Assembly (NCBI GenBank): GCA_945872355.1
Contig: CAMBZU010000033.1
Location: 1-35,836, forward strand
Source: Chitinophaga pinensis
Lineage (GTDB): Bacteria > Bacteroidota > Bacteroidia > UBA4408
DNA length: 35,836 bases
Reading direction: 5' to 3'
Position 1 is the stretch's first letter, and every line of letters starts with the position of its first letter. The translations under genes and the position numbers were made by a program. Below, in pieces: positions 1 through 27,459 of the stretch. Under the pieces are notes generated by a model. That model saw nothing but the letters and a program-made list of their open reading frames with translations, did no database searches and was not told the DNA's origin.

Positions 1-11
1 AAATAGAGCCA

Positions 12-19
12 CAAATATA
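12..19 (-). promoter_or_regulatory. Candidate -7 box of a leftward promoter
   Basis: Read on the minus strand this is TATATTTG, an exact match to the Bacteroidota -7 consensus TAnnTTTG. It points left, out of the window, so it would serve a gene whose start lies beyond position 1. No clear -33 TTG is present at the usual distance. The inverted repeat at 29-56 occupies the place where the -33 element should sit. The gene it would drive is not visible. Confidence 0.4.
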
Positions 20-28
20 CGTATTCTT

Positions 29-56
29 CTTTAACTATAAAATTCCATAGTTAAAG
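29..56. promoter_or_regulatory. Inverted repeat 1, operator-like (CTTTAACTAT-N8-ATAGTTAAAG)
   Basis: Perfect 10-bp arms at 29-38 and 47-56 flank an 8-nt spacer. The core TTAACTAT-N8-ATAGTTAA recurs in the dyad at 65-100 with the same spacer length, and the two centres (42.5 and 82.5) are 40 bp apart, about four helical turns. This is the geometry of a homodimeric repressor that binds two sites on one face of the DNA. It overlaps the -33 region of the leftward candidate promoter, so control of an off-window leftward gene is more likely than control of the operon starting at 289. The regulator family is unknown. Confidence 0.6.
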
Positions 57-64
57 TAAATGCA

Positions 65-100
65 TTAAGTTTAACTATAAATATTTATAGTTAAACTTAA
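65..100. promoter_or_regulatory. Inverted repeat 2, perfect 36-bp palindrome
   Basis: Positions 65-100 read identically on both strands over 36 bp. The inner part holds TTAACTAT (71-78), 8 nt, then ATAGTTAA (87-94), matching the dyad at 29-56 in both sequence and spacing. It is more likely a second operator for the same protein than a terminator, because no T-run or coding-gene end is next to it. A cruciform-prone palindrome is an alternative reading. Confidence 0.6.
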
Positions 101-118
101 AATGGCAAATAAATACTT

Positions 119-145
119 TATAAACCATACTGTATAAGGTTTATA
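119..145. repeat. Third dyad, TATAAACC-N11-GGTTTATA
   Basis: Perfect 8-bp arms at 119-126 and 138-145 enclose an 11-nt loop that itself contains ATAC-T-GTAT. It differs in sequence from the two upstream dyads. It lies about 145 bp before the first start codon and has no T-run on either strand, so it is not a convincing terminator. An operator or a 5' structure is possible. The rest of 146-264 shows nothing else that I can name. Confidence 0.35.
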
Positions 146-264
146 TAAAAATAGTACTTAATTTTTGTAAATTGTTAAAATAGAGTATTTATTTTAAAAG
201 TGTCAATTTAGGTTCATTGCTATATCGTATTTTAATAATAATTTTTTCATGTGCTAATTATTTA

Positions 265-272
265 TATTTTTG
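265..272 (+). promoter_or_regulatory. Candidate -7 box for the nSTAND operon
   Basis: TATTTTTG matches TAnnTTTG exactly and ends 16 nt before the ATG at 289, which would leave a leader of roughly 10 nt. No good -33 TTG is seen at about 20 nt upstream (the region is TTTTTTC), so this would be a weak or activator-dependent promoter. It is the only such box close to this start. Confidence 0.4.
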
Positions 273-288
273 AACTCTTATTATTCTT

Positions 289-3200
289 ATGAGCAACACT
301 ATCTGTCCATATCCAGGCCTTAGGCCTTTCAACGAAGAAGAGAGTATCTTCTTTAAAGGCCGTGAGCAACAGGTTGAACGCTTGGTAAAGCGGCTTGAGG
401 AAAAAAAGTTCCTGATGGTGAATGGTGCTAGTGGCGATGGAAAATCATCTTTAATATACGCAGGCGTTATTCCTTATGCCAAAGCAGGATTTTTTAAAGC
501 TAAATATAATAACTGGATTGTAGCAGATTTTAGACCAGAACGAAGCCCATTAAGGAATTTAACAGCTTCTATTTGCAAGCAATTAAAAATTGATGATGCT
601 GAAAAAACTGAAAAAGAATTAGGTTATGGTTTCAGTGCTTTATGCGATTTGTATAAAGCTTCTTCATTTTATATTGATGAAACATCTGCCACTTGGCTTA
701 ATGCTGATGATAAAGAAAAGAAGTTACTCAAACGCAAAGGCGCCAATTTATTGGTGTTGGTTGATCAGTTCGAAGAGTTTTTTACGAATCCAGAAAACTA
801 TCTGCACGGCATTCCAAGTATTGAAAGTCAGAAAACAGTAAATCTTTTACTTGAAACATATAAATTAGCTGCTGCCCAAGACATCCCAATTTATGTAGTT
901 TGCACCATGCGTAGCGATTATATTGGTCAGTGTGCAGCTTTCAGGGGTTTACCTGAAGCGATTGGATATAGTCAGTTTTTTGTGCCAAGGTTAAAAAGGC
1001 AAGAGATTGAGCAGGTGATTGAAGGTCCGGCAGAACTCGCAGGTTGTAAAATTAGCAAGCGTTTAACACAAACTTTGTTGAACAGTTTAACAGATGGTTT
1101 TGATCAGTTGCCTATTTTGCAACATGCGCTTAACCACATTTGGAAAATGGCTAAAAATGGCCAAGAAGAAATGGATTTGATTCATTTGGCCAAAGTAGGA
1201 GGAGTGTCATATAAACTATTATCAAGTGAGGATAAAATAGAATTTGAGCATTGGCGCGCAGCTTTGCCAGAATACAAACTGCAATTACTGGATAAACCAT
1301 CTTTAAGCAATATATTGAATGCGCATGCCAATGAGTTGTATTTAACAGCCCATCTGCATTACAAGAATTCTTTTGGAAAAGAGATAAGTATAACGCAAGC
1401 TCAAAAAATAATAAAGGTTGTTTTTCAATGCTTAACTAAAATGGATGCTTCCCGTGCCGTGCGAAACAGGATGACCTTACAAGAGATTACGGATATCATT
1501 AATGATGAAAAAATAAGCATTACAAAAGTTGACCAATTATTGCAAGTTTATCGCGAGCAAGGCAATACTTTTTTACAACCTTTTATTGGCGAACAAGGCG
1601 AGAACAAGGACCTAAGCCCAAATGCAGTATTGGATATTACACATGAAAGTTTAATCAGAAATTGGACACAATTAACCGAGTGGGCCAATGAAGAATTTGA
1701 TAATTTACAAAATTATTTAGATTTTAAAAAGCAGTTGCAACGATGGATTAACGCTAATAAAAACAGTGGTTATTTGTTGCCGATAGGTCCATTATCATTT
1801 TTTGAAAATTGGTTTGAAAAGTTAAATCCGAGTAAATATTGGATTCACAGGTATGAAGATTTTGAGGGTGATTTGGAGCAACAATTGGAGCATGCTGGAG
1901 AAATATTATCAAATGCTAAAAACTTTATTCAAAAAAGTGCCAAACGTTTAATTTTTTCGCGTACAGTTTTAAGGTATGGCGCACAACGCATTGCCATTGC
2001 CGCTGGGGTAATTTTATTGATTGGTTTGTGCACGTATTATTATTTTGATTATCGGAAAAAACAGAATGATTATGTGTTAAAGGAGTTGCTTTTGCATGGT
2101 AAGGAAATGTTATTATCTAAAAATGTGAGTGTAGAAGCCAAAGCGGATTTTTTAATTAACAATGACCGATTACTAGAGCTAAAAGGGGAGAAATCTGAAT
2201 TTGAAGGTCTATTAAATGAACTTAAAAACGATACTTTAGCTTTTGATGTTGGCTATGCTATGATTACTAAATGCCTAGCTAAGGTTGATTCAACCAATTT
2301 TGATAAGAAAGGGGAGTATAGTATGCGTTTATTTGATTATTTGTACAGAAATTTTGAATCAGAAGTCTCTCTAAAAATTGAAAAAATAAGTAAAGGGAAA
2401 GCCATTTCCTACAGTAAATATAGCAGAAATAGGTTGAATGATTTTTTGGGAATTTGTGCATTAATCAAACATGATGGTGTAAGCGATTATAAAGGCTTTG
2501 CGGATACCATTATTAATAAAACTATTTTTAAAGCACAATGGTTTTTGAATGACGCAATTAAATCTAAAACCTCTCAAAAATATTTAGTGGAGCACAATAT
2601 ACTATATACTTTTGCCTCTCTTATTGCTATTGATGATTTCCCCAACTATAGTGAATTTATTCATTTATTATCGCCTTTGGAGGGAGACACAGCGGCTTAT
2701 AATAGGTTTGATTCCATTTTTAAAAGCAATCAAGTTTATAGGTTTAATTGCCAAGATTTACCCAAGCAAGGTGGATTCCATCTTTTAGCCTTATTGTATG
2801 CTACACAATTTAAATCTGATATTACAGCTAAGGAGAAAATTGAGATGTTAATTGACTTTAATTTGTTTCAAAATAACAATTATAAGCCATTGGATATCTA
2901 TCTAACAATATATAAATTCAATGGAGACAGCGAACGGAATATTGATTTTGTAATTGATAGATTTGCAAAAAATGAATTTTCAAAAGCACAATTTATAGAA
3001 AGTGCTATTCAAAAATTATTTCAAAATTTGGAAGTGAGGTTAAACTTCCCTTCGTCTTTCATCAATTGTTTTGTTCCAAATACTTCGGCAATCGCTCTCT
3101 TTGATAGAGGCGAAAAAATGCTTTTGAATACAGATTTAAACGATAGTACCAGAATGAACTTGGCCGTTTATTATAAGAAAAGAGGCTTTTATTATAGTAA

Positions 3201-4305
3201 CTTCCTTCATCAAAATTCAAATGCTGAGATGTATTTTGGTGCCGCTCTCAATTATTATCAAATAGTTACAGAAGAGCATAAGTTGAAATTACATTATTTT
3301 GATAAAGTTAATTGGAATAATGCTTCAATTCCAAATTACCTATGGGTACTTTCTCCAAAACTATACAATGAATTTCAAACAGCATCTAATTATTGTAGCT
3401 TAACAACTATCGGTGATATTGATGCCGGTGGGAATGATAATTTTTCTCCTTTTTTAGATTTTTTGATTAAAAATAGGAGATTACATACAATTAGCAGTCT
3501 AACATATTTAAAAGTTTTAAATGAGTATGCTGCCTATGGTAATGATAGTCTTACGATGTCGGTATTGAAATTTTTATCAGAAATTAAATGCAGTAGTTCA
3601 GAGATTAGCTCAAATCTTCTTGCCAAAATAGGACTATATGAAAGTTATATATTATTTAAAAATAATGAATTGGATAATGCTAATACTAAAATTGATTCTT
3701 TATTTAAAGTGCTACCAAAAGTAATTAATGAAGATAATGGCTGGATTAAAGCCAACGCATTAATTTTAGCAGCAAACGGAGATACAGCAAGGACACTTAA
3801 ACTACTTAGTTATGTGCAATCGGCAGAGGAAAAAAACAAAATATTGCTGAACATTTGTTATCAATTGCAAGAAGGTCCTGGTGTAGAATACACGTATTTC
3901 TATTTAAATGAACTGCTTAGAAACTACAGCAAAGATGCTAAAATTGCGATGGCTTTGTACAGAGTGCTGGGTAAAATTGGAGGTTACGAAGCAGAAAAGA
4001 ACCAAGCGCGTAAAAAATATAGAAATACACCTGAATTAATGAAACCCTTAGCCTTGCAGAACTGGGTGCTTGGTACTGCAGAAAATGGTAATTATTATAA
4101 GGCCAAAAATCTTATTCCCGAAAACGTTTCAGAAACCAAAGAATTAATTTTAATAAATCAAATTTTAAAGGCTGAAATCATTCATCTAACAAAAAAGAAG
4201 CAGCAGAACGCCTATATCGGGAATTGGAACGACACAAGATATTTTGAGTTGGATTTGCAAATTGAATCAATAAACAATGATATTAAGCTCAATAGTTTAG
4301 AATAA
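289..4305 (+). CDS. Membrane-anchored nSTAND-type NTPase with large C-terminal region
   Basis: This is a signal-transducing STAND-class ATPase of 1338 residues. The N-terminus PYPGLRPF plus FFKGRE is the hallmark of the novel-STAND-1 domain. Walker A is GASGDGKSS (46-54), Walker B is VDQFEE (158-163), and the arginine-bearing strand CTMRSDYIG starts near 205. The NTPase and its helical extension run to about 550. A single hydrophobic helix (about 568-588) follows, then some 750 residues that resemble no domain I recognise; they look mostly helical, with one short TPR-like stretch near 960-1000. No WD40 repeats, which commonly follow this NTPase, are visible. With the NTPase in the cytosol, one helix would place the C-terminal region in the periplasm. 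The next gene starts 5 nt downstream, so this is the first gene of a three-gene operon. Family recognition is firm; the biological role is unknown. Confidence 0.85.
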   Translation: MSNTICPYPGLRPFNEEESIFFKGREQQVERLVKRLEEKKFLMVNGASGDGKSSLIYAGVIPYAKAGFFKAKYNNWIVADFRPERSPLRNLTASICKQLKIDDAEKTEKELGYGFSALCDLYKASSFYIDETSATWLNADDKEKKLLKRKGANLLVLVDQFEEFFTNPENYLHGIPSIESQKTVNLLLETYKLAAAQDIPIYVVCTMRSDYIGQCAAFRGLPEAIGYSQFFVPRLKRQEIEQVIEGPAELAGCKISKRLTQTLLNSLTDGFDQLPILQHALNHIWKMAKNGQEEMDLIHLAKVGGVSYKLLSSEDKIEFEHWRAALPEYKLQLLDKPSLSNILNAHANELYLTAHLHYKNSFGKEISITQAQKIIKVVFQCLTKMDASRAVRNRMTLQEITDIINDEKISITKVDQLLQVYREQGNTFLQPFIGEQGENKDLSPNAVLDITHESLIRNWTQLTEWANEEFDNLQNYLDFKKQLQRWINANKNSGYLLPIGPLSFFENWFEKLNPSKYWIHRYEDFEGDLEQQLEHAGEILSNAKNFIQKSAKRLIFSRTVLRYGAQRIAIAAGVILLIGLCTYYYFDYRKKQNDYVLKELLLHGKEMLLSKNVSVEAKADFLINNDRLLELKGEKSEFEGLLNELKNDTLAFDVGYAMITKCLAKVDSTNFDKKGEYSMRLFDYLYRNFESEVSLKIEKISKGKAISYSKYSRNRLNDFLGICALIKHDGVSDYKGFADTIINKTIFKAQWFLNDAIKSKTSQKYLVEHNILYTFASLIAIDDFPNYSEFIHLLSPLEGDTAAYNRFDSIFKSNQVYRFNCQDLPKQGGFHLLALLYATQFKSDITAKEKIEMLIDFNLFQNNNYKPLDIYLTIYKFNGDSERNIDFVIDRFAKNEFSKAQFIESAIQKLFQNLEVRLNFPSSFINCFVPNTSAIALFDRGEKMLLNTDLNDSTRMNLAVYYKKRGFYYSNFLHQNSNAEMYFGAALNYYQIVTEEHKLKLHYFDKVNWNNASIPNYLWVLSPKLYNEFQTASNYCSLTTIGDIDAGGNDNFSPFLDFLIKNRRLHTISSLTYLKVLNEYAAYGNDSLTMSVLKFLSEIKCSSSEISSNLLAKIGLYESYILFKNNELDNANTKIDSLFKVLPKVINEDNGWIKANALILAANGDTARTLKLLSYVQSAEEKNKILLNICYQLQEGPGVEYTYFYLNELLRNYSKDAKIAMALYRVLGKIGGYEAEKNQARKKYRNTPELMKPLALQNWVLGTAENGNYYKAKNLIPENVSETKELILINQILKAEIIHLTKKKQQNAYIGNWNDTRYFELDLQIESINNDIKLNSLE

Positions 4306-4310
4306 TTATT

Positions 4311-5270
4311 ATGAAAAAACATATTCATATAATCATCTTTTTTTTATGCCTTTGCTTAGTTGGCTTCTTTGCCAATTTTGCACAAAATGATTACGGATTA
4401 ACTATAGTTAATTACAGTATGCTTGCTGTTGCTTTGTTGTTTATAGATATGATGCGGCTAACAATTATCAAGTATAAAATTGCCGGTTATTTTATTTATC
4501 TAATGGTTTTGTATCCAGTAATTGCTGTATTTGTTGATTTGCAGGATACTAGTGAGGAGTTTTTAATGGTATATGTTTTGAGCATGCTTGCAGGCTTTAT
4601 ATACAATGCAATAGTTTTACCTGTGGTTTTGTTTTTTAAAGAAAGAAAGTTAGGTAATGCTGAAATCAGTTTTTTGAGCTATTATGAATTACTTTTTTTA
4701 TCCGTTTTACTTGTGGGTTTTAATCTAAAATCAAATCAATATACAGGGGCAGCTCCTATACTTTCTCTGAGTATGTTGATTGTTATTCCCGCTTTAATAA
4801 GGTTGGTGCAGCTCATAAAATTGTTGATATCGGGTAAATACTTCTCTGCTGTTTTTCAACTGTTAGTTTGCGTTTTTATAACGTTGACTATAGTAAGTAC
4901 TGTTTTTAAATTGGAACATTGGCCTGGTGCCGATTCGATATTAAATATTTGTAGGCCTATTATGTTTATTTCAGTATTGCTTTTGCTTTTTATTACCTAT
5001 TTAAAAAAAGAGATAAGGCCTTTTACTCACACCAACCCCGCTATGAAAACTGCTTACTTCTCTTTTTGTGTTACTTTTCTTTGGCTTACTTTGCATCATG
5101 CAGGAGTTGCTCCTTCTGTTTATTCAGATAGGTATCCAAAAGGGATGCAAATGTTGGGCGCCCAAAAAAACGGTTTTAATGCAGAAGGGAGGGAGTTCGG
5201 TAGAAAATATGAGATTTATATCGAAAATTTGGAGCATTTTGTTGAAGAGCAGAACAAAGCCAAACAATAG
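4311..5270 (+). CDS. Polytopic membrane protein with FKxxHWPGA motif
   Basis: This 319-residue protein has about seven or eight hydrophobic segments between residues 5 and 265, then a charged soluble tail of about 55 residues. I do not recognise the family as a whole. Residues 199-207 read FKLEHWPGA, between two hydrophobic helices. The same FK-x-x-HWPGA turn is known from the N-terminal helix pair of GldL, the T9SS/gliding motor protein, and it also occurs in other Bacteroidota membrane proteins, so it does not identify this gene as gldL. The start is 5 nt after the upstream stop and the next gene begins 2 nt after this stop, so translation is likely coupled. A membrane partner that links the STAND protein to the phosphatase is an inference from context. 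Confidence 0.75.
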   Translation: MKKHIHIIIFFLCLCLVGFFANFAQNDYGLTIVNYSMLAVALLFIDMMRLTIIKYKIAGYFIYLMVLYPVIAVFVDLQDTSEEFLMVYVLSMLAGFIYNAIVLPVVLFFKERKLGNAEISFLSYYELLFLSVLLVGFNLKSNQYTGAAPILSLSMLIVIPALIRLVQLIKLLISGKYFSAVFQLLVCVFITLTIVSTVFKLEHWPGADSILNICRPIMFISVLLLLFITYLKKEIRPFTHTNPAMKTAYFSFCVTFLWLTLHHAGVAPSVYSDRYPKGMQMLGAQKNGFNAEGREFGRKYEIYIENLEHFVEEQNKAKQ

Positions 5271-5272
5271 CA

Positions 5273-6475
5273 ATGGTAGTTATCGTTATATTATTTTCAA
5301 TATCACTCATCGTATGTTTTGTTTATCTGCATAAGCAAAAGAAGCAAATAGAAATTTTACAGCAACAACATGCTATAGAGATCAATTACGTTAGCCTTAA
5401 AACAATTGAAGAGGAGCGCATACAAACAGCGCATGAAAAACGTATTGCTGATATTGAGAATGATAAAATTAATCTTGCTTTGGAAAAAGAAAAGCTTGCC
5501 GAAAAAAACAAACGCATGTGGGCTATGAACGAGACTGTTTATAAGGAAAAAAAGAAAGTTGATGAGGAAATAGAAAAACTAAATGATGAAAAAGCAAAGC
5601 TTGAACAAGCGAAAAATAAATTAGATGAGAAGGTAAAAAAACTCTGGGCTACGAGCACTGCAGTGCATAAAGAAAAAGAAAGAATCAATATTATAAAGCA
5701 AGAAATAGAACGTAAGCATCAAGAAATTGTTGACAGTGTAACATACGCGCAACGCATTCAAGAGGCTATTTTACCTTCTAGAACAGAGATTAATCAAGCC
5801 ATTCCGTTTAACGCAATTATGTTTAAACCACGTGATATTGTGAGTGGCGATTTTTATTGGTTTTCGCAAAAAGGAGATGAAAGTATTTTGGCTTGTGTGG
5901 ATTGCACTGGGCATGGTGTGCCAGGCGCTTTCATGAGTATGATTGGAAATACCTTGCTTAATCAAATTGTGAATGAGCGCGATATTATACAACCCAATTT
6001 AATCTTAAACGAGCTCAATAAAGAAATAACCAGTGCCTTAAAACAAGATGCAGCTGGCAGCGATTCGCGCGATGGGATGGATATTTCTATTTTAAAAATT
6101 AATTTAATTAAAAATGAATTGCAATACGCAGGTGCAAACAGGCCATTGTATTATATTCGTAATAATGAATTGATTGAAACCAAAGCCAATAAAGTAGCTA
6201 TAGGCGGTCATATGCCAGAAGAAGAAAAAAACTTTAGCCTACATACATTTGATTTACAAAAAGGCGATACCATTTATCTTTCAACCGATGGCTATGCCGA
6301 TCAGTTTAATTCATCAGATAAAAAATTAATGACCAAGCGCTTTAAAGAAATATTGTTAAGCATACAACATTTAACGATGCTGGAGCAAGAGCAGTATTTA
6401 GCTCAATTTATTGATGAATGGCGAGGTATAATGGAACAAACCGATGATGTTTTGGTGATTGGGGTAAGGGTTTGA
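5273..6475 (+). CDS. Membrane-anchored coiled-coil SpoIIE/PP2C phosphatase
   Basis: A predicted serine/threonine phosphatase of the SpoIIE branch of PP2C, 400 residues. One N-terminal membrane helix (about 2-18) is followed by a long charged coiled coil (about 20-150) and the phosphatase domain (about 155-400). The metal-binding and catalytic set looks complete: GDFYW with Asp193, DCTGHG with Asp210, STDG with Asp339, and Asp391/Asp392 near the end. The coiled coil contains a 42-residue duplication (KLAEK at 74 and KLDEK at 116, each followed by a W-A and a KEK block). Family members usually dephosphorylate anti-anti-sigma proteins or similar partners, but no STAS or anti-sigma gene lies in this window. 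It is the third gene of the operon, and its catalytic domain closely resembles that of the sensor at 24256. Confidence 0.88.
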   Translation: MVVIVILFSISLIVCFVYLHKQKKQIEILQQQHAIEINYVSLKTIEEERIQTAHEKRIADIENDKINLALEKEKLAEKNKRMWAMNETVYKEKKKVDEEIEKLNDEKAKLEQAKNKLDEKVKKLWATSTAVHKEKERINIIKQEIERKHQEIVDSVTYAQRIQEAILPSRTEINQAIPFNAIMFKPRDIVSGDFYWFSQKGDESILACVDCTGHGVPGAFMSMIGNTLLNQIVNERDIIQPNLILNELNKEITSALKQDAAGSDSRDGMDISILKINLIKNELQYAGANRPLYYIRNNELIETKANKVAIGGHMPEEEKNFSLHTFDLQKGDTIYLSTDGYADQFNSSDKKLMTKRFKEILLSIQHLTMLEQEQYLAQFIDEWRGIMEQTDDVLVIGVRV

Positions 6476-18115: not shown

Positions 18116-21100
18116 ATGAAAAAACTATTTTTAATTGCCATATTAATAGCTGTAAAATTACATGTTTTTGCGCAAGCTATACAAATTACATATCCCGATG
18201 GTGGCGAAGTTTTGACGGCCAATAACAGTGATTTTATTACATGGACCGATGCTTCTTTAGCGCTTGTAAAATTAGAATACAGTAGTAATGGCGGCAGCAC
18301 TTGGAATTTTATTGCCAATGCAACTTCCTTTTCAGGTACTGGCTTTTATCAGTGGACAGTGCCCAGTATTACTTCAACTAATTGTTTGGTAAGGGTAAGC
18401 AATTTCTCTAATTTGTTAGAAAATGACGTTAGTAATGCTTCGTTTGAGATTACAGCCCCTTCTATTACTTTGATATACCCCAGTGGGGTGCAATATTTTG
18501 CTATTGGAAGTGCTGAAGATATAACTTGGTATGCACCTGGAGTAGATTTTATAGATATTGAATATTCTACAAATGGAGGTGCAACTTTTATGCCTGTGGC
18601 CAGCAATATTGATGCTGCTTTGGGCAGTTATACTTGGAGTCCTATTCCTAACACACCTTCAAATACTTGTAAAGTTAGGATTAAACAAAGTAGTAATGCT
18701 GGTTTAAATGATGTGTCTAATTTTGATTTTAGCATTCAAAGTGCAGGCCTTGTGCTCGATTACCCCAATGGTGGCGAAGTGCTTACATCTAATACTGGTT
18801 CTTATATCAATTGGACTGCTACAGGTGTTGCGAATTTAAATATTGAATATTCTATAAATGGTGGATCAACATGGAATGTTATAGCAAATAATGTATCAGG
18901 TACATGGTATTGGTGGAATCCTGTTCCAACTGCACCATCCACAAATTGTTTGATAAGAATTACAGATGCCAATAATGCAAGTATAACAGATATTTCAGAT
19001 GCAACATTTACTATTTCTTCAGGCACTATTGATTTAAGTTATCCAAGTGGGAATGAAATTTTTGCCGTTGGCACTACTGAGCAAATATGGTGGCAAGCGC
19101 CCGGCATTGCTAATTTTAAAATAGAATACTCTTATGATTCAATGCTTACTTGGAATACCATTGTGAACAATTACAATAATGGTAGTTCTTACGATTGGTT
19201 GATCCCCAATACGCCATCGAGCAATTGTTTTGTAAAGCTTAGTAATGCAAATGATTTATCTGTTTATGATATCAATGCCCTTGAATTTAATATAGTTGCA
19301 CCATCATTAACAGTAAATTACCCTAACGGAGGTGAAACCTTTCAGTCGGGAAATACTTATTACTTGCAGTATCAAGCTTATGGAATAGATTCAGTAGCTA
19401 TTGAATACAGTATAAATGGCGGTTCCAATTGGTTGGCCATTGACAATGGTATTTCTTCATTTGATGGAAATAATTATTATAATTGGTTAGTGCCAAATAC
19501 GCCTGCTAACAATTGTTTAATAAGGGTTAAAGATGTTGCAACAGGTTTAGTAATTGATCAAAGTAATTTCTCTTTTAGCATTGTTTTTGGCGGTTTGCCT
19601 AATTGCGCAAGTAATTTATATCCAGCAAATGGACTTAGCTCTTTTAGCAGAAACCCTGTATTTACATGGTCAGCAGCAGGAGGAACTGTATTGATAGATG
19701 GGTATGATCTTTATTTGGGTACGAGCGCCAATCCGCCATTATATCAGGCTGGCATCACTGTTTTATATCAGCAAGTATTGAATTTAAATCCTTCCACAAC
19801 GTATTATTGGAAAATAGTTCCGCAAAGTGTTAATGGCCCTGCTAATGCATGCATTATTAATAGTTTCACAACTTCGGCTACCAATATTTATAATATGGAT
19901 AATCAAGCAGAAACTGTTTGTGCTGGCACTTTTTATGATGCTGCTGGTCCGCAAGCAACTTATAATATTAATGAGTCCTTTATTAAAACATTTACTCCAA
20001 CTACAGTTGGACAAGTTTTAAAATTTAATTTTAGCAGTTTTGAAAGTGAGTTAAATTATGATCTTTTAAAGATTTATAACGGCACTAGCACTGCTGCGCC
20101 GCTCATTGGAACTTATTCGGGAACTGCTTCACCCGGCAGCGTTGTGGCTGCAAATGCGCAAGGCGCACTTACTTTTCAATGGGTGAGCGATTATAATAAT
20201 CAGGAAGTAGGTTGGCAAGCAGCAATTTCATGTGTTGCACCCGGCACACAAGCTATTAATTTAAACTCACCCAACGGTGGCGAAAGCTGGATTGGCAACA
20301 CCAATCATACCATCACTTGGACATCACAAAATGTAGCATTAGTAAATCTTGAATACTCAATTGATAGCGGTTTAACTTGGCAAAATATTGCAAGCAATTT
20401 AAATAATACGGGTAGTTTTAATTGGCAAGTGCCGCTTCCGGCATCAACACATTGTTTTGTTAAGGTTGTTGCTGCCAATAATGTAAATGTGTTTGATGCC
20501 AGCAATGCACAATTTGAAATTCAATACGTGCCAATTTATGTTGATTTATCATCGCCTAATACAGCACTTACCTTTTTAATAGGCACAACACAGCAAATTA
20601 CTTGGCAAAGCATGTTTGTGAGCAATGTTAATATTGAATACTCAATAGATGCAGGCGTAAATTGGATAAACATAGTATCAAACAATATAAGTTCAGATGG
20701 CTACAATTCATACAATTGGACTGTTCCTAATACACCAAGCAACCTTTGTTTAATAAGGATTTCTGATGCCAGTAATTCCACTGTAAGTGATGCTAGTCAA
20801 AGTGCTTTTTATATTGTGGCGCCCAATTTAGAAATGGTGCAGCCCAATGGCGGAGAAGTGTTAGCTGGTGGAACTTATTTCACAATTAATTGGACAGGTT
20901 ATATCAATAGTAATTATGTGAACTTAGCATATTCAACTAACAATGGCGGGGCATGGAATACCATAGCCACCAATCTATATCATTACAATGGTTATAATAA
21001 TTCATACAATTGGTTTATAGCCAATGTAAACAGTGCTAACTGTAGAATTAGAGTAAGTCAAGTAGCAAATCCAACAATCAATGATGAAAGTAATAACACT

Positions 21101-24004
21101 TTTACAATAAATGCGAATACCTCAAATATCACAATTGTGCAACCTAATGGCGGTGAAATATTGAGTGGCGGAGCAACTTATGCTGTGCAATGGAATTCAA
21201 GTTTTACTTCGGGTAATTATACAGTGAAGTTTTCTAATAATAATGGGGTTTCATGGACTAACTTAGCAAGTAACATCAGTAATAATGGGTATTTTAATTG
21301 GTTGGTTCCCAATCAGGCGCAGAGCAATTGTTTAATTAGAATTAACGATGTGCAGGACACCACTATTTTTGATGTTAGCGATGCCAACTTTAGTATTGTA
21401 GCAACAACACCTTCTATAACCAATGTTGTTCCTAATGGGGCAGAAGTGTTTGGGGTTGATAATTATGTCACTATCACTTGGAACAGTGTATTGGTAAGTA
21501 ATGTAGATATACTTTTTTCTAGCAATGGCGGTAATAGCTATTCAACAATAGTTTCAAATTATAATAATATTAACTACTACAATTGGTTGGTGCCAAATGT
21601 AATTTCAAGTAATTGTGTTATTAAAGTGAGGGCAGCTGGCAGCTCAACTTTGTTTGATGTAAGTGATGCTTCCTTTACTATTGAGCAAGGCACAGCTTCA
21701 TTAACTTTGTTAAGTCCTAACGGTGGTGAGAGTTTTTTAGCAAACACGCCTAACCATATTATAAAATGGGCTGGTTCGGGAATAGGCAACGCTATTAAAT
21801 TGGAGTATTCAATTGATGGAGGATCAAATTGGACTGTGATTATAGGTTCCTTTGCATCTATAAATAATATTTATTATTGGTTTACACCAAATTTAGTTTC
21901 AACGCAATGTTTGGTAAGAGTGAGCAGCACCAGCAACGCTACGTTAACTGATGTAAGTGATGCTGCATTTGAAATAATAGCATCAACACCAAGCTTAAGC
22001 GTAAATACACCCAATGGTGGTGAGTATTTGAACCAAGGCTATTGGTATAATATTACTTGGAATAGAAACAACGTAGCATTGGTGAATTTGAGTTATAGTG
22101 ATAACAATGGTGTAACATGGAATCCATTGCTAAATGCAGTAAATGCAGATAGTTATTATTGGAATGTACCAAATGTATCTTCCACACAGTGTTTAATAAA
22201 AGTTGAAAAATCAGGAACTGGCGCTGCCTTGCTCGACCAAAGTGATGCATTATTTACAATAGGACCTGTTTTAGCTAATGCTAATGCTTTAGTTATCGAT
22301 TCAATTAATCCTTTGCCATTTTGCAAATTGGATACTGTTTATGTATATTATACTGCCAATGGTATTTACAATTTAGGTAATTCATTCGATGTGCAATTAT
22401 CCGATAGCGTTGGTAATTTTAATAATGCAATACTGATTGGTCAGTTAAGTTCAACGGCCAATGCGGGAGTAATTGCCTGTGTGGTTCCAACAACAGTTGG
22501 CAATGGCTTGGGTTATAGAATTAGAATGCAATCGAGTGACTTGCCTTCAACTAGTAATGATAATGGCATTGACATCGTCATAAATAGTCCGCAATTTGAT
22601 TTTGCAGCCAATGATTTAATTAAATATTTACCTGATGGCGCAGTAACTTTTTATGTAATTCCTCAGCAATCAGCAACTGCTAGTTATGCTTGGGATTTTG
22701 GTGATGGCGCAACTGCCAATGCTGCGCAGCCATTGCATAATTATTCAACCATAGGAAAATTTGATGTGAGCTGTACCATACAGGATGCAGGTTGCACTGT
22801 TAGCGTTAATAAGCCATTATATATAAGAGTTGAGCAATTGTTTCCAAGTACAGCGTTAAATACTAATACTACAACAGATATCACAGCTATTTCAATGCTT
22901 TCACCTGACACGGCTTTAATGACAATGAAAGATGGCAATTGCTTGCGCAGCTTTGATGGAGGTAATACTTGGAATACATCAGTAACAGGTTTAATAGCAG
23001 GTACCGACACCTTATTGTCTTGCGATATGTACGCTGGAAAATGGCGTGTGGTAGGTTCTAATGGTTTAATTAGGGAATCAACAGATAACGGACAAACATG
23101 GAACCCAATGACAAGTCCAACTGCACAGCGTATGTATGGTGTGGCTACTTTTGATAACAATATTGCCTTTGCGGTAGGAGATGCTGGTGTGATATTAAAT
23201 TATGATGGCAACAATTGGGTACAACAAAATACAGGAGTTTCTGCGCGTTTTTGGGATGTTGCAGTTGATGAAAGTTCGGCAACACCAACAGCCTATGCGG
23301 TTGGAAGTGGAGGAACCATTTTTAAATATGAGGCAGGAAGCTGGGGCCCAAGAAGCTCGGGGATTACAGGCGGATTATTTGGCACCGCAGCTTTAGGCAA
23401 CAATGTTGTATATGCGGTTGGAGGTTTAACACAAGGTTTAATTTTAAAAACTACCAATGGAGGAACAACTTGGAATACTGTTTTGAATGGTGTAGATGTA
23501 AGTTTTAGAAGTGTAACTGGAATAGCAGATACAGCCTGGGCTTGCGCTTTTGATGGCATTATTTATGAAACCAGAGATGGTGGCTCAAGTTGGGTGAGAT
23601 ATAGTGTTGGGGATACTTATAATAATACGGGAATTAATTTTAGAACTTCGAGGGGGATTGTGGCAGGTAACGCAGGAGGAGGAAGGGTATTTGGATTACC
23701 AAGTAATGCTGATGATACAACAGGTTTAAAAAATAAATTTTATGCCCCTGATCAGTTGAGTTTGTTCCCCAATCCTGCTAATAGTATCGTTTATTTTGAT
23801 TGTAAATTTGAACATGCAAAGTCTGTAAAATTTACAATCAAAGATGTTGATGGTAAAACAGTATTAAGCGTTCCTATGCAGACCATCATTTATAAAAAAC
23901 TTTTATATAGTATGAATACCGACAAAATGAGCAACGGTATTTATTTTGTATTTGTAGAAGATGGTAGACAGAGCTTTGTTAAAAAGTTGGTCATTTCAAA
24001 ATAG
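18116..24004 (+). CDS. Giant secreted modular protein with T9SS sorting domain
   Basis: A 1962-residue predicted cell-surface or secreted protein. Signal peptide 1-19 ends VFAQ. Residues 24-490 hold five beta-sandwich repeats of about 93 residues. An FnIII-like domain (about 495-588) and a CUB-like domain (about 598-708) interrupt, and seven more repeats follow (about 712-1385). Next come an Ig-like stretch (to about 1492), a PKD domain with YAWDFGDG (about 1495-1572), a YCF48/sialidase-like propeller with several GGxTWN motifs (about 1578-1868), and a type A T9SS sorting domain (LFPNPANS near 1881, ending KKLVISK). The repeat is like the Ser/Thr-rich Kre9/KNH-type fold. An adhesin or surface-matrix role is inferred; no catalytic domain is seen. 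It has its own promoter and terminator. Confidence 0.9.
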   Translation: MKKLFLIAILIAVKLHVFAQAIQITYPDGGEVLTANNSDFITWTDASLALVKLEYSSNGGSTWNFIANATSFSGTGFYQWTVPSITSTNCLVRVSNFSNLLENDVSNASFEITAPSITLIYPSGVQYFAIGSAEDITWYAPGVDFIDIEYSTNGGATFMPVASNIDAALGSYTWSPIPNTPSNTCKVRIKQSSNAGLNDVSNFDFSIQSAGLVLDYPNGGEVLTSNTGSYINWTATGVANLNIEYSINGGSTWNVIANNVSGTWYWWNPVPTAPSTNCLIRITDANNASITDISDATFTISSGTIDLSYPSGNEIFAVGTTEQIWWQAPGIANFKIEYSYDSMLTWNTIVNNYNNGSSYDWLIPNTPSSNCFVKLSNANDLSVYDINALEFNIVAPSLTVNYPNGGETFQSGNTYYLQYQAYGIDSVAIEYSINGGSNWLAIDNGISSFDGNNYYNWLVPNTPANNCLIRVKDVATGLVIDQSNFSFSIVFGGLPNCASNLYPANGLSSFSRNPVFTWSAAGGTVLIDGYDLYLGTSANPPLYQAGITVLYQQVLNLNPSTTYYWKIVPQSVNGPANACIINSFTTSATNIYNMDNQAETVCAGTFYDAAGPQATYNINESFIKTFTPTTVGQVLKFNFSSFESELNYDLLKIYNGTSTAAPLIGTYSGTASPGSVVAANAQGALTFQWVSDYNNQEVGWQAAISCVAPGTQAINLNSPNGGESWIGNTNHTITWTSQNVALVNLEYSIDSGLTWQNIASNLNNTGSFNWQVPLPASTHCFVKVVAANNVNVFDASNAQFEIQYVPIYVDLSSPNTALTFLIGTTQQITWQSMFVSNVNIEYSIDAGVNWINIVSNNISSDGYNSYNWTVPNTPSNLCLIRISDASNSTVSDASQSAFYIVAPNLEMVQPNGGEVLAGGTYFTINWTGYINSNYVNLAYSTNNGGAWNTIATNLYHYNGYNNSYNWFIANVNSANCRIRVSQVANPTINDESNNTFTINANTSNITIVQPNGGEILSGGATYAVQWNSSFTSGNYTVKFSNNNGVSWTNLASNISNNGYFNWLVPNQAQSNCLIRINDVQDTTIFDVSDANFSIVATTPSITNVVPNGAEVFGVDNYVTITWNSVLVSNVDILFSSNGGNSYSTIVSNYNNINYYNWLVPNVISSNCVIKVRAAGSSTLFDVSDASFTIEQGTASLTLLSPNGGESFLANTPNHIIKWAGSGIGNAIKLEYSIDGGSNWTVIIGSFASINNIYYWFTPNLVSTQCLVRVSSTSNATLTDVSDAAFEIIASTPSLSVNTPNGGEYLNQGYWYNITWNRNNVALVNLSYSDNNGVTWNPLLNAVNADSYYWNVPNVSSTQCLIKVEKSGTGAALLDQSDALFTIGPVLANANALVIDSINPLPFCKLDTVYVYYTANGIYNLGNSFDVQLSDSVGNFNNAILIGQLSSTANAGVIACVVPTTVGNGLGYRIRMQSSDLPSTSNDNGIDIVINSPQFDFAANDLIKYLPDGAVTFYVIPQQSATASYAWDFGDGATANAAQPLHNYSTIGKFDVSCTIQDAGCTVSVNKPLYIRVEQLFPSTALNTNTTTDITAISMLSPDTALMTMKDGNCLRSFDGGNTWNTSVTGLIAGTDTLLSCDMYAGKWRVVGSNGLIRESTDNGQTWNPMTSPTAQRMYGVATFDNNIAFAVGDAGVILNYDGNNWVQQNTGVSARFWDVAVDESSATPTAYAVGSGGTIFKYEAGSWGPRSSGITGGLFGTAALGNNVVYAVGGLTQGLILKTTNGGTTWNTVLNGVDVSFRSVTGIADTAWACAFDGIIYETRDGGSSWVRYSVGDTYNNTGINFRTSRGIVAGNAGGGRVFGLPSNADDTTGLKNKFYAPDQLSLFPNPANSIVYFDCKFEHAKSVKFTIKDVDGKTVLSVPMQTIIYKKLLYSMNTDKMSNGIYFVFVEDGRQSFVKKLVISK
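18185..22270 (+). repeat. Twelve diverged protein-level repeats of about 93 residues
   Basis: Each unit reads approximately PNGGE, then W, then IEYSINGG-x-W, then YNW-x-VPN, then NCLIRV, then D-x-S-x-A-x-F-x-I. Five units precede the FnIII/CUB insert (18185 to about 19590) and seven follow it (about 20254 to 22270). The units are strongly diverged at DNA level, so this is an old expansion and not a recent slippage array. A single cysteine in the NCLIRV strand is present in all twelve. Confidence 0.85.
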
Positions 24005-24255: not shown

Positions 24256-27200
24256 ATGAAGAGCAGGCTTTTGGCATTTTTTATTCTTATTTTGTTTCCC
24301 TTAGTGCTTTTTGCGCAGGGAAAGAGTTTCTATAAAACATATTCTGCCAAAGATTACAATGCCCACGCTCAAAATTGGTGTGCTCTGCAGGGTAATGATG
24401 GCATTATGTATTTTGGCAATACCATAGGCCTTTTAATTTATGATGGTGAAAACTGGCAATCACTTAAGCTCAATAATTCTGTTGTGAGAAGTTTGGATAA
24501 GGATAGCCAAGGAAAAATATATTATGGTGCCCAAGGAGAGTTTGGATACTTGTATAAGAATAATAAAGGACAGATGATAGGAAAAAGTCTCGTAGAACTG
24601 CTTCCCGATTCTTTAAAATTATTTGGTGATGTCTGGAAAACATACACCTATAATAACAAAGTTATTTTTCAGACTTACGATTTCCTGTTTATTTATGAAA
24701 ATAATAAAATTACAGTATTAGAAGCCGAAAACGTTTTTCATTTTGGATATAAACGAAACAACGATTTTTATATTATTGACCGTGAGATGGGCCTTAAAAA
24801 ACTGGTAAAAAACAAACTTGTTCTACTCAGTGGAGGTGATTTTTTTGTAGATCAAAGGATATATGGATGGATTAACTTTCCTGATTATAGTCTGGTTGCT
24901 ACGAGAGAAAAAGGTCTTTTTAAAATAGTTTTTGATCATAACAACGGAATCGTTATTACACCTTTCAATACACCAATAAATGAGGCGTTAATTGAAGGTG
25001 AAGTTTATTGTGCCATACAACTTAAGAATGGAAAATTAGCTTTTGGAACCTTATACCATGGGCTTTACCTTACTAATCATGAAGGTAAACTGCTTAAAAT
25101 AATTAACAAATCGGATGGTTTAAAAAGTGAAATGGTAAGGTGGTGCTTTGAAGATCAACAGCATGGATTATGGTTAGCCTTAAATATGGGAATCACAAGA
25201 TTAGAAATAAATAGTAATATAGCATCATTTGGCGAGGAACAAGGACTGGATGGTATTGTAACATCATTTGTAACCTTCAATAATAAGTATTATTGCGGTA
25301 CATCTAAAGGACTCTTTGAGATAGATGGTAATGCTGTTAAGCGTTTTGAAAACTTCAATAACGATGTAAGAAATATCCATAAGGTTAAATTGAATAACCA
25401 GGAATTTCTGATTGTTTTAACTGAGGTTGGCACCTTTAAGCTGGATACAAATAATAAACTTTATGAATTAAATAAAACAAATGGACTGTATTTAACGCAA
25501 AGTAAATATTCGCCAGGCATTTGTTATTTAGGTTCGATGACTGGCTTAGAAATTTTGAATCTGGAAAAAGATAATATCATAAAACTGGAAGAGCAGTCTA
25601 TACCAGAAGTAAGAAAGATTGTGGAAGAGAATGAATCAACCATTTGGATAGGAACATCTCACAATGGCGTATATAAAATAAAGAATTTGTTGCGTAAAAA
25701 GCCGGAATTTATAAGTTATGATACCCTTAGTGGGTTGCCAAATAACTCTTATAACCTGCCTTTCATGGTAAACTATAAAATACTGTTTGGTACCTATAAC
25801 GGGATATATAAATATAACCCAAACACAAATAAGTTTAAACAAGTAGAAGAATTTGATAAGGCCAATTATAAGTCAGGAGAGCAAATTTATCAGATCGTGG
25901 AGGGATTTAAAAACAACATTTGGTTATTTAAAACCAGTGAAACCACTCATGAATTTATAAGTTATAATTTGAAGACAAAAGCATCTGCATGGCCACTTAA
26001 AAGAATGTCAGATTACGATGCCTATCATTGTATTTTTCCCGAAAATGAAAATATTACCTGGTTTGGTGGACCTGATGGTTTATTCAGGTATGATGCTTCA
26101 AAACCAAGCAAGGATAGTATTGCTTTCAAAACAAAAATAAGAGGCGTATATTGCATGAACGATACTTTATTTGGCGGTTATTATGGTTTTGATAATGAAA
26201 ATAAAAAGATTGAAAAACAGCAATCCATTCCAGAAGTAATTTACAAAAAAAACAACATCAATTTTGAGTTTGCCGCTTTAAGCTACGATAATGAAAAGGA
26301 AAATGCTTACAGTTACTATCTCGAAGGCTTTGAAAACAGCTGGAGTGATTGGACCTATGAATCAAAGAAAAGTTACACCAATTTAAATGAAGGTACTTAT
26401 ACCTTTCATATCAAATCTAAAAATGTTTACGGAAAAGAAGGCGAGCAGGACACTTATACTTTTACCATTTTGCCACCCTGGTATCGCACCGCTTGGGCCT
26501 ATTTTGGCTATGTTATAGGTTCAATAATTGTGGTGTATATAATCACACAAATAAGTGTGCGCAGATTAAAAAGTGCAAAAATAAAATTAGAAGCCATTGT
26601 TGTTAACAGAACAGCTGAGGTGGTTGCCGAAAAAGAGGAAGTAGAAAAGCAAAAGAAAATTGTAGAGGTAAAAAATAAAGATATTACAGACAGTATTAAC
26701 TATGCGCAAAAGATTCAGCAGGCCATACTTCCTTTGCAAGATGAGTTTAGTAAAGTATTTCCTCAGTCGTTTATTTATTTTCAACCGCGCGATATTGTAA
26801 GCGGCGATTTTTATTGGTTTTATCCTCCACATAAGCTCAATCAAAATCATGTGTATTTGGCAGCAGCCGATTGCACAGGCCATGGCGTGCCGGGCGCCTT
26901 CATGAGTATGATTGGTAATACCTTGCTTAATGAAATCTTAAATGAAAAGCAAATTTATAAATGCGATGCCATTTTAAATCAACTACATACTGAGGTGCGC
27001 GCCGCATTGAAGCAAGATATTGCGCATAATACCACTAATGATGGTATGGATATAGCACTTTGTAGCATTGATTTGGATACACTTGAACTGCAATATGCCG
27101 GTGCCAATAGGGCGCTGTATATTTTTAGACAGCATACTGAGGGATATGAATTTATTGAAGTAAAGCCCAACAAATTTTCGATTGGGGGCTTTCAGGCAGA

Positions 27201-27459
27201 AACCACCAGGCAGTTTAATGCCCATACCATACAACTAAAACAAGGCGATACGTTTTATATGTTTAGTGATGGCTATGCCGATCAGTTTGGTGGCGCCAAT
27301 AACAAGAAGTTTATGGTAAAACGTCTTCAGGCAGAGTTGATGGCTATGCAACAAATAGCGCTAAGTGAACAAAAAATAGTGGTCGCAAAAATGCTCAATG
27401 ATTGGAAAGGAGATGCCGAACAAGTAGATGATATTTTAATGATAGGAGTGAGGGTATAA
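24256..27459 (+). CDS. Propeller-type sensor fused to SpoIIE/PP2C phosphatase
   Basis: A one-protein transmembrane receptor of 1067 residues. Signal peptide 1-20 (ends LFAQ). A periplasmic two-component-regulator-type propeller spans about 25-665, with blade motifs such as GLWLALNMGITRLE and TIWIGTSHNGVYKI. A Y_Y_Y domain (about 668-740, YYLEGFENSWSDW) follows, then one membrane helix (about 746-768), a coiled coil (about 770-810) and a SpoIIE phosphatase (about 811-1067). The metal ligands appear complete: Asp851, Asp872 (DCTGHG), Asp1005 (SDG), and Asp1058/Asp1059. In hybrid two-component systems this ectodomain usually drives a histidine kinase; here the output is a phosphatase. The ligand is unknown, and no SusC/SusD pair is adjacent. 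The domain order is confident. Confidence 0.92.
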   Translation: MKSRLLAFFILILFPLVLFAQGKSFYKTYSAKDYNAHAQNWCALQGNDGIMYFGNTIGLLIYDGENWQSLKLNNSVVRSLDKDSQGKIYYGAQGEFGYLYKNNKGQMIGKSLVELLPDSLKLFGDVWKTYTYNNKVIFQTYDFLFIYENNKITVLEAENVFHFGYKRNNDFYIIDREMGLKKLVKNKLVLLSGGDFFVDQRIYGWINFPDYSLVATREKGLFKIVFDHNNGIVITPFNTPINEALIEGEVYCAIQLKNGKLAFGTLYHGLYLTNHEGKLLKIINKSDGLKSEMVRWCFEDQQHGLWLALNMGITRLEINSNIASFGEEQGLDGIVTSFVTFNNKYYCGTSKGLFEIDGNAVKRFENFNNDVRNIHKVKLNNQEFLIVLTEVGTFKLDTNNKLYELNKTNGLYLTQSKYSPGICYLGSMTGLEILNLEKDNIIKLEEQSIPEVRKIVEENESTIWIGTSHNGVYKIKNLLRKKPEFISYDTLSGLPNNSYNLPFMVNYKILFGTYNGIYKYNPNTNKFKQVEEFDKANYKSGEQIYQIVEGFKNNIWLFKTSETTHEFISYNLKTKASAWPLKRMSDYDAYHCIFPENENITWFGGPDGLFRYDASKPSKDSIAFKTKIRGVYCMNDTLFGGYYGFDNENKKIEKQQSIPEVIYKKNNINFEFAALSYDNEKENAYSYYLEGFENSWSDWTYESKKSYTNLNEGTYTFHIKSKNVYGKEGEQDTYTFTILPPWYRTAWAYFGYVIGSIIVVYIITQISVRRLKSAKIKLEAIVVNRTAEVVAEKEEVEKQKKIVEVKNKDITDSINYAQKIQQAILPLQDEFSKVFPQSFIYFQPRDIVSGDFYWFYPPHKLNQNHVYLAAADCTGHGVPGAFMSMIGNTLLNEILNEKQIYKCDAILNQLHTEVRAALKQDIAHNTTNDGMDIALCSIDLDTLELQYAGANRALYIFRQHTEGYEFIEVKPNKFSIGGFQAETTRQFNAHTIQLKQGDTFYMFSDGYADQFGGANNKKFMVKRLQAELMAMQQIALSEQKIVVAKMLNDWKGDAEQVDDILMIGVRV

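Follow-up and report, generated by a model that had tools for sequence, protein, structure and literature searches.

A candidate four-component transmembrane STAND signalling system of Bacteroidota with exchangeable envelope modules and a SpoIIE-type phosphatase

The stretch of DNA analysed here (the window; 35,836 nucleotides) is the whole of contig C33 from a 3.4 Mb genome assembled in 133 contigs and placed in the Bacteroidota by its relatives. The contig starts 288 nt ahead of the start codon of an nSTAND NTPase gene, which is followed by genes for a polytopic membrane (TM) protein and a membrane-anchored PP2C phosphatase, with intergenic gaps of 5 nt (nSTAND/TM) and 2 nt (TM/PP2C). The reading frames, Pfam matches and motifs agreed with the gene number, gaps and domains given in the initial annotation. 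Its treatment of the three genes as a complete operon had to be revised, as a fourth gene, the first in order and encoding a DUF4062 protein, had been missed on a separate contig (C69). The features of the window locus are as follows.

1..288, + strand: region upstream of the nSTAND gene, with inverted repeats overlapping at 28-100 (blastn)
289..4305, + strand: nSTAND1 NTPase of 1338 aa, with an NTPase/winged-helix half predicted to be cytosolic, one TM helix and a long C-terminal half (ORF, Pfam)
424..450, + strand: Walker A motif GASGDGKSS, residues 46-54 (motif inspection)
748..783, + strand: Walker B motif LLVLVDQFEEFF, residues 154-165 (motif)
1990..2046, + strand: sole TM helix of the nSTAND protein, residues ~568-586 (TM prediction)
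2047..4302, + strand: C-terminal half of the nSTAND protein, ~750 aa, predicted periplasmic and fast-diverging, its family tracking the type of envelope partner (sequence comparison)
4311..5270, + strand: polytopic (~8 TM) envelope partner protein, 319 aa (ORF, TM prediction)
4725..4751, + strand: degenerate first copy of the hairpin motif, LKSNQYTGA (motif alignment)
4905..4931, + strand: FKLEHWPGA motif, in the TM7-TM8 hairpin aligned with the GldL motor hairpin (hhalign)
5273..6475, + strand: SpoIIE-type PP2C phosphatase with a membrane anchor, 400 aa (ORF, Pfam)
5273..5332, + strand: N-terminal TM helix of the phosphatase (TM prediction)
5354..5767, + strand: coiled-coil linker of the phosphatase (sequence inspection and weak coiled-coil family matches)
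5846..6472, + strand: PP2C catalytic domain with GD, DCTGHG, TDG and DD motifs (Pfam, motifs)

The first protein matched nSTAND1 (PF20703, E=1.9e-71) and carried both Walker motifs, GASGDGKSS and VDQFEE, the latter within a Walker B that includes LLVLVDQFEE from residue 154. Judging from hydropathy and charge, it probably spans the inner membrane with its C-terminal half in the periplasm. Our sister-species comparison revealed 82% identity in the NTPase vs 44% in the C-terminal half, dropping to ~29% where the compared stretch ends, and the corresponding values for tandem nSTAND copies were 80% vs 36% in one locus (L196) and 77% vs 63% in another (L189). A constant NTPase joined to a diverging C-terminal half resembles the pattern of a diversifying sensor. 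Tandem arrays with at least two nSTAND-module-PP2C units per locus were observed in three rumen Bacteroidales loci (L196, L189 and L186); their NTPases are conserved, and the C-terminal halves in L196 and L186 are strongly diverged.

The membrane protein, with ~8 TM helices, matched no family in our Pfam scan, and its AlphaFold2 model (mean pLDDT 59) was not relied on. Its TM7-TM8 hairpin, which bears the FK..HWPGA motif, aligned with GldL (hhalign probability 93%, E=3.4e-7, 47 columns), but in the TM family this hairpin lacks the TM2 Glu that the GldL alignment shows to be invariant. Identification of the protein as a GldL was therefore rejected, given the missing Glu and the 8 TM helices in place of 2; the genome encodes a separate GldL of its own. 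The third protein matched SpoIIE (PF07228, E=7.9e-19), with the metal-binding motifs GD, DCTGHG, TDG and DD at residues 192, 210, 337 and 390. The genome as a whole contains 14 SpoIIE matches vs one strong RsbW-type kinase, whose HATPase gene lies elsewhere, outside the operon, and whose presence makes partner switching possible. Pfam detected no STAS or anti-sigma kinase gene among the window operon genes, nor did such a gene turn up in relatives, whose operon genes were classified by similarity and only partly by Pfam scan. Further along the window lie a second SpoIIE phosphatase (24256-27459; 1067 aa), with a Reg_prop propeller and Y_Y_Y domains, and a secreted protein (18116-24004; 1962 aa) that combines reelin-like, CUB and PKD domains with one for type IX sorting.

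A genome search with the NTPase identified two partial copies of the nSTAND start on contig C69, where the gene order is S9 peptidase, DUF4062, a 70-aa ORF, a truncated nSTAND start, a Fic gene in the opposite orientation and lastly, where the contig stops, an intact nSTAND start. Window positions 5-495 matched the end of C69 (blastn), and an end-to-end join of the two contigs by identical overlap failed because this overlap is 89%, not 100%. An asparaginase gene lies just downstream of the window phosphatase, and G003, a sister species, has the S9 peptidase and asparaginase genes adjacent, convergent and 8 bp apart, an empty site. It follows from this empty site that C69 and the window would flank one site and that the whole block of ~9.5 kb is an insertion; synteny is thus the basis for placing the two contigs side by side, and another tandem nSTAND copy may lie between them. 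In another sister species (G002), the S9 peptidase is followed by DUF4062, an nSTAND fragment and a stretch matching the Fic region of C69, and in a different genus of the same family (G006), a CopG/MazF-like pair, read from sequence, lies between the nSTAND and TM genes. Guest genes seem to accumulate at this locus.

Truncated 5' copies of nSTAND stand beside the inserted genes, namely Fic in C69 (L004 1-2000) and, in G002 (L226/L052), the match to the Fic region and an aspartyl-protease ORF, as if guest cassettes brought or duplicated the first ~120 bp of the nSTAND gene. AT-rich palindromes (AACTATAAAATTTTATAGTTAAA-like) occur on both sides of the C69 Fic gene (L004 1680-1760 and 400-475) and recur at window positions 28-100, ahead of the nSTAND gene; they might serve the HTH-bearing Fic protein as operators. 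No nSTAND was found in phage records, and the six plasmid records with nSTAND, including a Hymenobacter plasmid, indicated no general plasmid linkage. On the complete plasmid of Hymenobacter tibetensis (L246 737-6651), a 530-aa hypothetical gene, comparable in size to TIR-DUF4062 proteins, lies directly ahead of an nSTAND relative.

The C69 protein matched DUF4062 (PF13271) above the cut-off and so shares the domain of Swarozyc, an antiphage system in which DUF4062, a TIR-like NADase family, requires a catalytic Glu (PMC13174449, a 2026 preprint). In the operon proteins, the motif reads S.xx.Q[FYL]xxA vs S[YI]T..E[YF] in canonical DUF4062, and Gln thus replaces the catalytic Glu. This Gln was present in 58 of the 70 aligned rows of the operon clade, some of the remaining rows not being DUF4062 proteins; a controlled alignment gave Gln in 10/10 operon proteins vs Glu in 8/8 canonical ones, the latter a small control because the motif pattern recovered 8 of ~32 loci. 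Simple membership in Swarozyc was rejected on the loss of this residue. The AlphaFold2 model of a DUF4062 relative (pLDDT 90) was compared with solved folds over residues 1-150, which matched DNPH1 (Z ~15) and TIR domains (Z 11-13), and the model contains a second alpha/beta domain that is more conserved than the DUF4062 domain itself. Searching PDB sequences with the DUF4062 protein returned chance-level matches only. PADLOC found no model for the operon DUF4062, nSTAND and TM proteins or for X356/lipoprotein examples and gave just weak coiled-coil-type matches for the PP2C; no known antiphage system was recognised in this way.

These data bear on the possibility of an abortive infection system of the Swarozyc/TIR type, in which DUF4062 would hydrolyse NAD+ upon nSTAND oligomerisation, with the PP2C and the membrane protein merely restraining it. 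Such a role would agree with the demonstration of DUF4062 as a TIR-like NADase antiphage effector (PMC13174449), the usual position of its gene next to the STAND switch, the patchy, inserted nature of the locus and the TIR/NDT-like fold of the model. We nevertheless regard it as improbable, given that Gln occupies the catalytic column across the operon clade where canonical proteins retain Glu, that conservation is highest in the second domain, outside DUF4062, and that PADLOC recognised none of the tested proteins beyond the weak PP2C matches. The lack of the catalytic Glu leaves a simple NADase suicide system unsupported. Judging from its sequence, the operon DUF4062 is probably not an NADase of the Swarozyc kind, and its role is probably that of an adaptor or ligand-binding part.

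Relatives of the nSTAND protein (E<1e-40) occurred in 49/395 genomes of the class, and 78 further named loci were added to the survey. The initial annotation had suggested searching genomes for co-occurrence of the three families in a fixed order, and the order nSTAND-TM-PP2C indeed recurred in four genomes (G006, G234, G270 and G137) and in a Sphingobacteriaceae MAG (L195), with protein identities of 25-60% and, in some loci, small or lipoprotein genes in between. In most loci, DUF4062 adjoins nSTAND or is fused to it (~1500 aa). Four arrangements were distinguished. Type A consists of DUF4062, nSTAND (~1090 aa), a beta-barrel/TPR protein, a lipoprotein (~410 aa) and PP2C, reduced in rumen Bacteroidales often to nSTAND-PP2C preceded by DUF4062. 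Type B, that of the window, consists of DUF4062, nSTAND (~1340 aa), the 8-TM protein, in some cases a GldM-like lipoprotein, and PP2C; L195 is an intact four-gene copy with gaps of 2, 15 and 0 nt. Type C has TIR+DUF4062, two nSTAND genes in tandem and TM, often with a TPR-S protein, and PP2C is absent; type D is a DUF4062-nSTAND fusion. A PP2C gene lay in the same directon for 37 of the 134 distinct nSTAND ORFs, against an expectation of ~0.04 SpoIIE genes per 10 kb in this genome, a contrast that is descriptive and not a test because the loci are related. The conserved core is DUF4062 plus nSTAND, to which PP2C is frequently added, and the three window genes make up the distal portion of a recurring four-component Bacteroidota system.

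The earlier proposal of a STAND switch combined with an envelope protein and a phosphatase therefore stands in outline, with its core corrected to DUF4062 and nSTAND and the TM protein reduced to one of at least two exchangeable modules. It had also been held that the membrane protein and the phosphatase should not routinely occur without the NTPase, and here the picture is mixed. One locus (L051 7388-9457, in G366) encodes a 689-aa fusion of the TM-hairpin protein with PP2C and has no nSTAND neighbour, and the tandem-nSTAND type has TM without PP2C; in nearly all loci found, however, the TM protein adjoins an nSTAND with the long C-terminus.

The C-terminal half of nSTAND comprises two families whose HMMs do not cross-match. 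The long family was accompanied by the TM protein in 37/37 loci and the short one by a beta-barrel partner or by PP2C alone in 38/38, giving a fit between C-terminal type and module in 75/75 loci (Fisher p=2.9e-22, uncorrected for kinship among the loci). Across types A and B, identity was at similar levels in the core, 54-62% in the NTPase, 57-65% in the DUF4062 C-domain and 44-60% in the PP2C catalytic domain, vs 22-32% for the envelope parts in all but one short comparison. In our tree, the window PP2C fell in a supported clade with PP2Cs from both type A and type B loci; the operon PP2Cs as a whole did not form a single clade. The paired C-terminal families, the mixed-type PP2C clade and the similar core identity across types are most simply read to mean that the cytosolic core stays constant while the envelope module is exchanged, each module having to fit its C-terminal half.

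STAND/CBASS-type defence commonly employs TM effectors, and the 8-TM protein might accordingly depolarise or perforate the inner membrane, with PP2C resetting or silencing it, an idea to which the pairing of TM with nSTAND even where PP2C is absent (the tandem type) lends some weight. We consider such an effector highly unlikely: in much of the family the TM gene is swapped for beta-barrel/lipoprotein genes while the core is unchanged, which fits a sensor module better, and the divergence of the TM protein follows that of the sensor half.

Beyond the GldL-like hairpin, a lipoprotein with GldM_3rd and GldM_4th domains directly follows the TM gene in L043, and two homologues of it occur in L108. 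L045 encodes OmpA proteins, one of which has FG-GAP and carboxypeptidase-regulatory domains and resembles the type IX secretion system (T9SS) component PG1058 (PMC5053529). Some modules are thus composed of relatives of type IX secretion proteins. The same proteins, including the likeness to PG1058 (PMC5053529), together with the RsbW-type kinase in the genome, could be taken as signs of a housekeeping regulator of envelope, secretion or gliding, in which the module would monitor the type IX secretion/gliding machine and PP2C would tune partner switching, with no part in conflict. This appears rather unlikely to us, since patchiness, insertion into a conserved intergenic site, a fast-diverging sensor half and guest Fic and toxin-antitoxin-like genes are unlike core motility genes, and the TM protein lacks the conserved Glu of GldL.

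The initial annotation had allowed for a role in defence while stating that nothing pointed specifically to it, which now seems too weak: DUF4062 is the Swarozyc domain (PMC13174449), the insertion is clean and absent in a sister species, guest Fic and toxin-antitoxin-like genes are present, and the sensor diverges rapidly. Conflict or defence is thus favoured over housekeeping on the strength of the insertion, the patchiness, the guest toxin-type genes and the sensor divergence, a preference short of proof. We picture a four-component transmembrane STAND signalling system of DUF4062, nSTAND, envelope module and PP2C, a proposal that we judge about evenly balanced between right and wrong. The nSTAND protein would place its ATPase half in the cytosol, cross the inner membrane and expose the fast-evolving C-terminal half to the periplasm, where it would cooperate with a matched partner (the 8-TM protein with GldL-like hairpins, GldM-like lipoproteins, or a beta-barrel/TPR protein with a lipoprotein). 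An envelope cue, probably an attack on the envelope or on surface or secretion machinery, would be read by the C-terminal half, whereupon the NTPase would exchange nucleotide and oligomerise, altering two cytosolic partners. One would be the TIR/nucleosidase-like DUF4062 protein without its catalytic Glu, probably as an adaptor or ligand-binding part; the other would be the membrane-anchored coiled-coil PP2C, dephosphorylating a Ser/Thr protein as the output of a defence or envelope-stress response. As PP2C is missing from the tandem type and from many other DUF4062-nSTAND loci, the phosphatase cannot be the sole output of the family. A bolder version, which we advance only tentatively and do not expect to hold in full, is an NLR-like transmembrane receptor family with a constant core (pseudo-NADase adaptor, STAND ATPase and PP2C) and interchangeable periplasmic sensors, some derived from relatives of the T9SS motor, that would convert an envelope event into reversible dephosphorylation and not suicide.

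As far as is known, most of the STAND NTPases examined in bacterial defence reside in the cytosol, and most have destructive effectors as their output. The system proposed here would contrast with them in its membrane-anchored switch, its variable half predicted to be periplasmic, and its recurrent partners, one a phosphatase, the other TIR-like but lacking the catalytic residue. If this is true, Bacteroidota would gain a receptor-like immune or stress module, some of their SpoIIE phosphatases (14 matches in this genome) would be offered a role, and the new DUF4062 NADase family would gain a probably non-catalytic branch. The initial annotation knew of no characterised system of this composition, and our literature search likewise found no description: none of the papers searched contained both nSTAND and SpoIIE, or both GldL and SpoIIE. 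With RsbU/SpoIIE partner-switching phosphatases, the operon shares a SpoIIE-type PP2C with complete motifs behind a coiled coil, whereas this PP2C sits with a STAND NTPase and not with a stressosome or sensor domain, and no STAS or anti-sigma kinase gene was seen beside it. The GldL/GldM motor of the T9SS shares the FKxxHWPGA hairpin of the TM protein and the GldM_3rd/GldM_4th domains of one relative's lipoprotein, with homologues in another, but differs in that the TM protein has 8 TM helices in place of 2 and lacks the GldL Glu, and no gldKN was seen. Swarozyc, described as a single protein that binds the phage portal (PMC13174449), has in common with the operon the TIR/NDT-like DUF4062 domain and a patchy distribution; the operon protein differs in its Gln for the catalytic Glu, its second conserved alpha/beta domain and its regular nSTAND neighbour. 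The nSTAND1/EAD conflict systems (Kaur et al. 2020, PMC7159879; 2021, PMC8195603) share nSTAND1 as the central switch and TIR-family partners, whereas the operon adds a transmembrane architecture, a probably periplasmic sensor half, an exchangeable envelope module and a SpoIIE-type PP2C; by term search, DUF4062 appears in neither paper, and SpoIIE is absent from PMC7159879. The closest known systems are thus the nSTAND1 conflict systems (PMC8195603, PMC7159879) together with Swarozyc, and the operon is a variant of STAND-centred systems.
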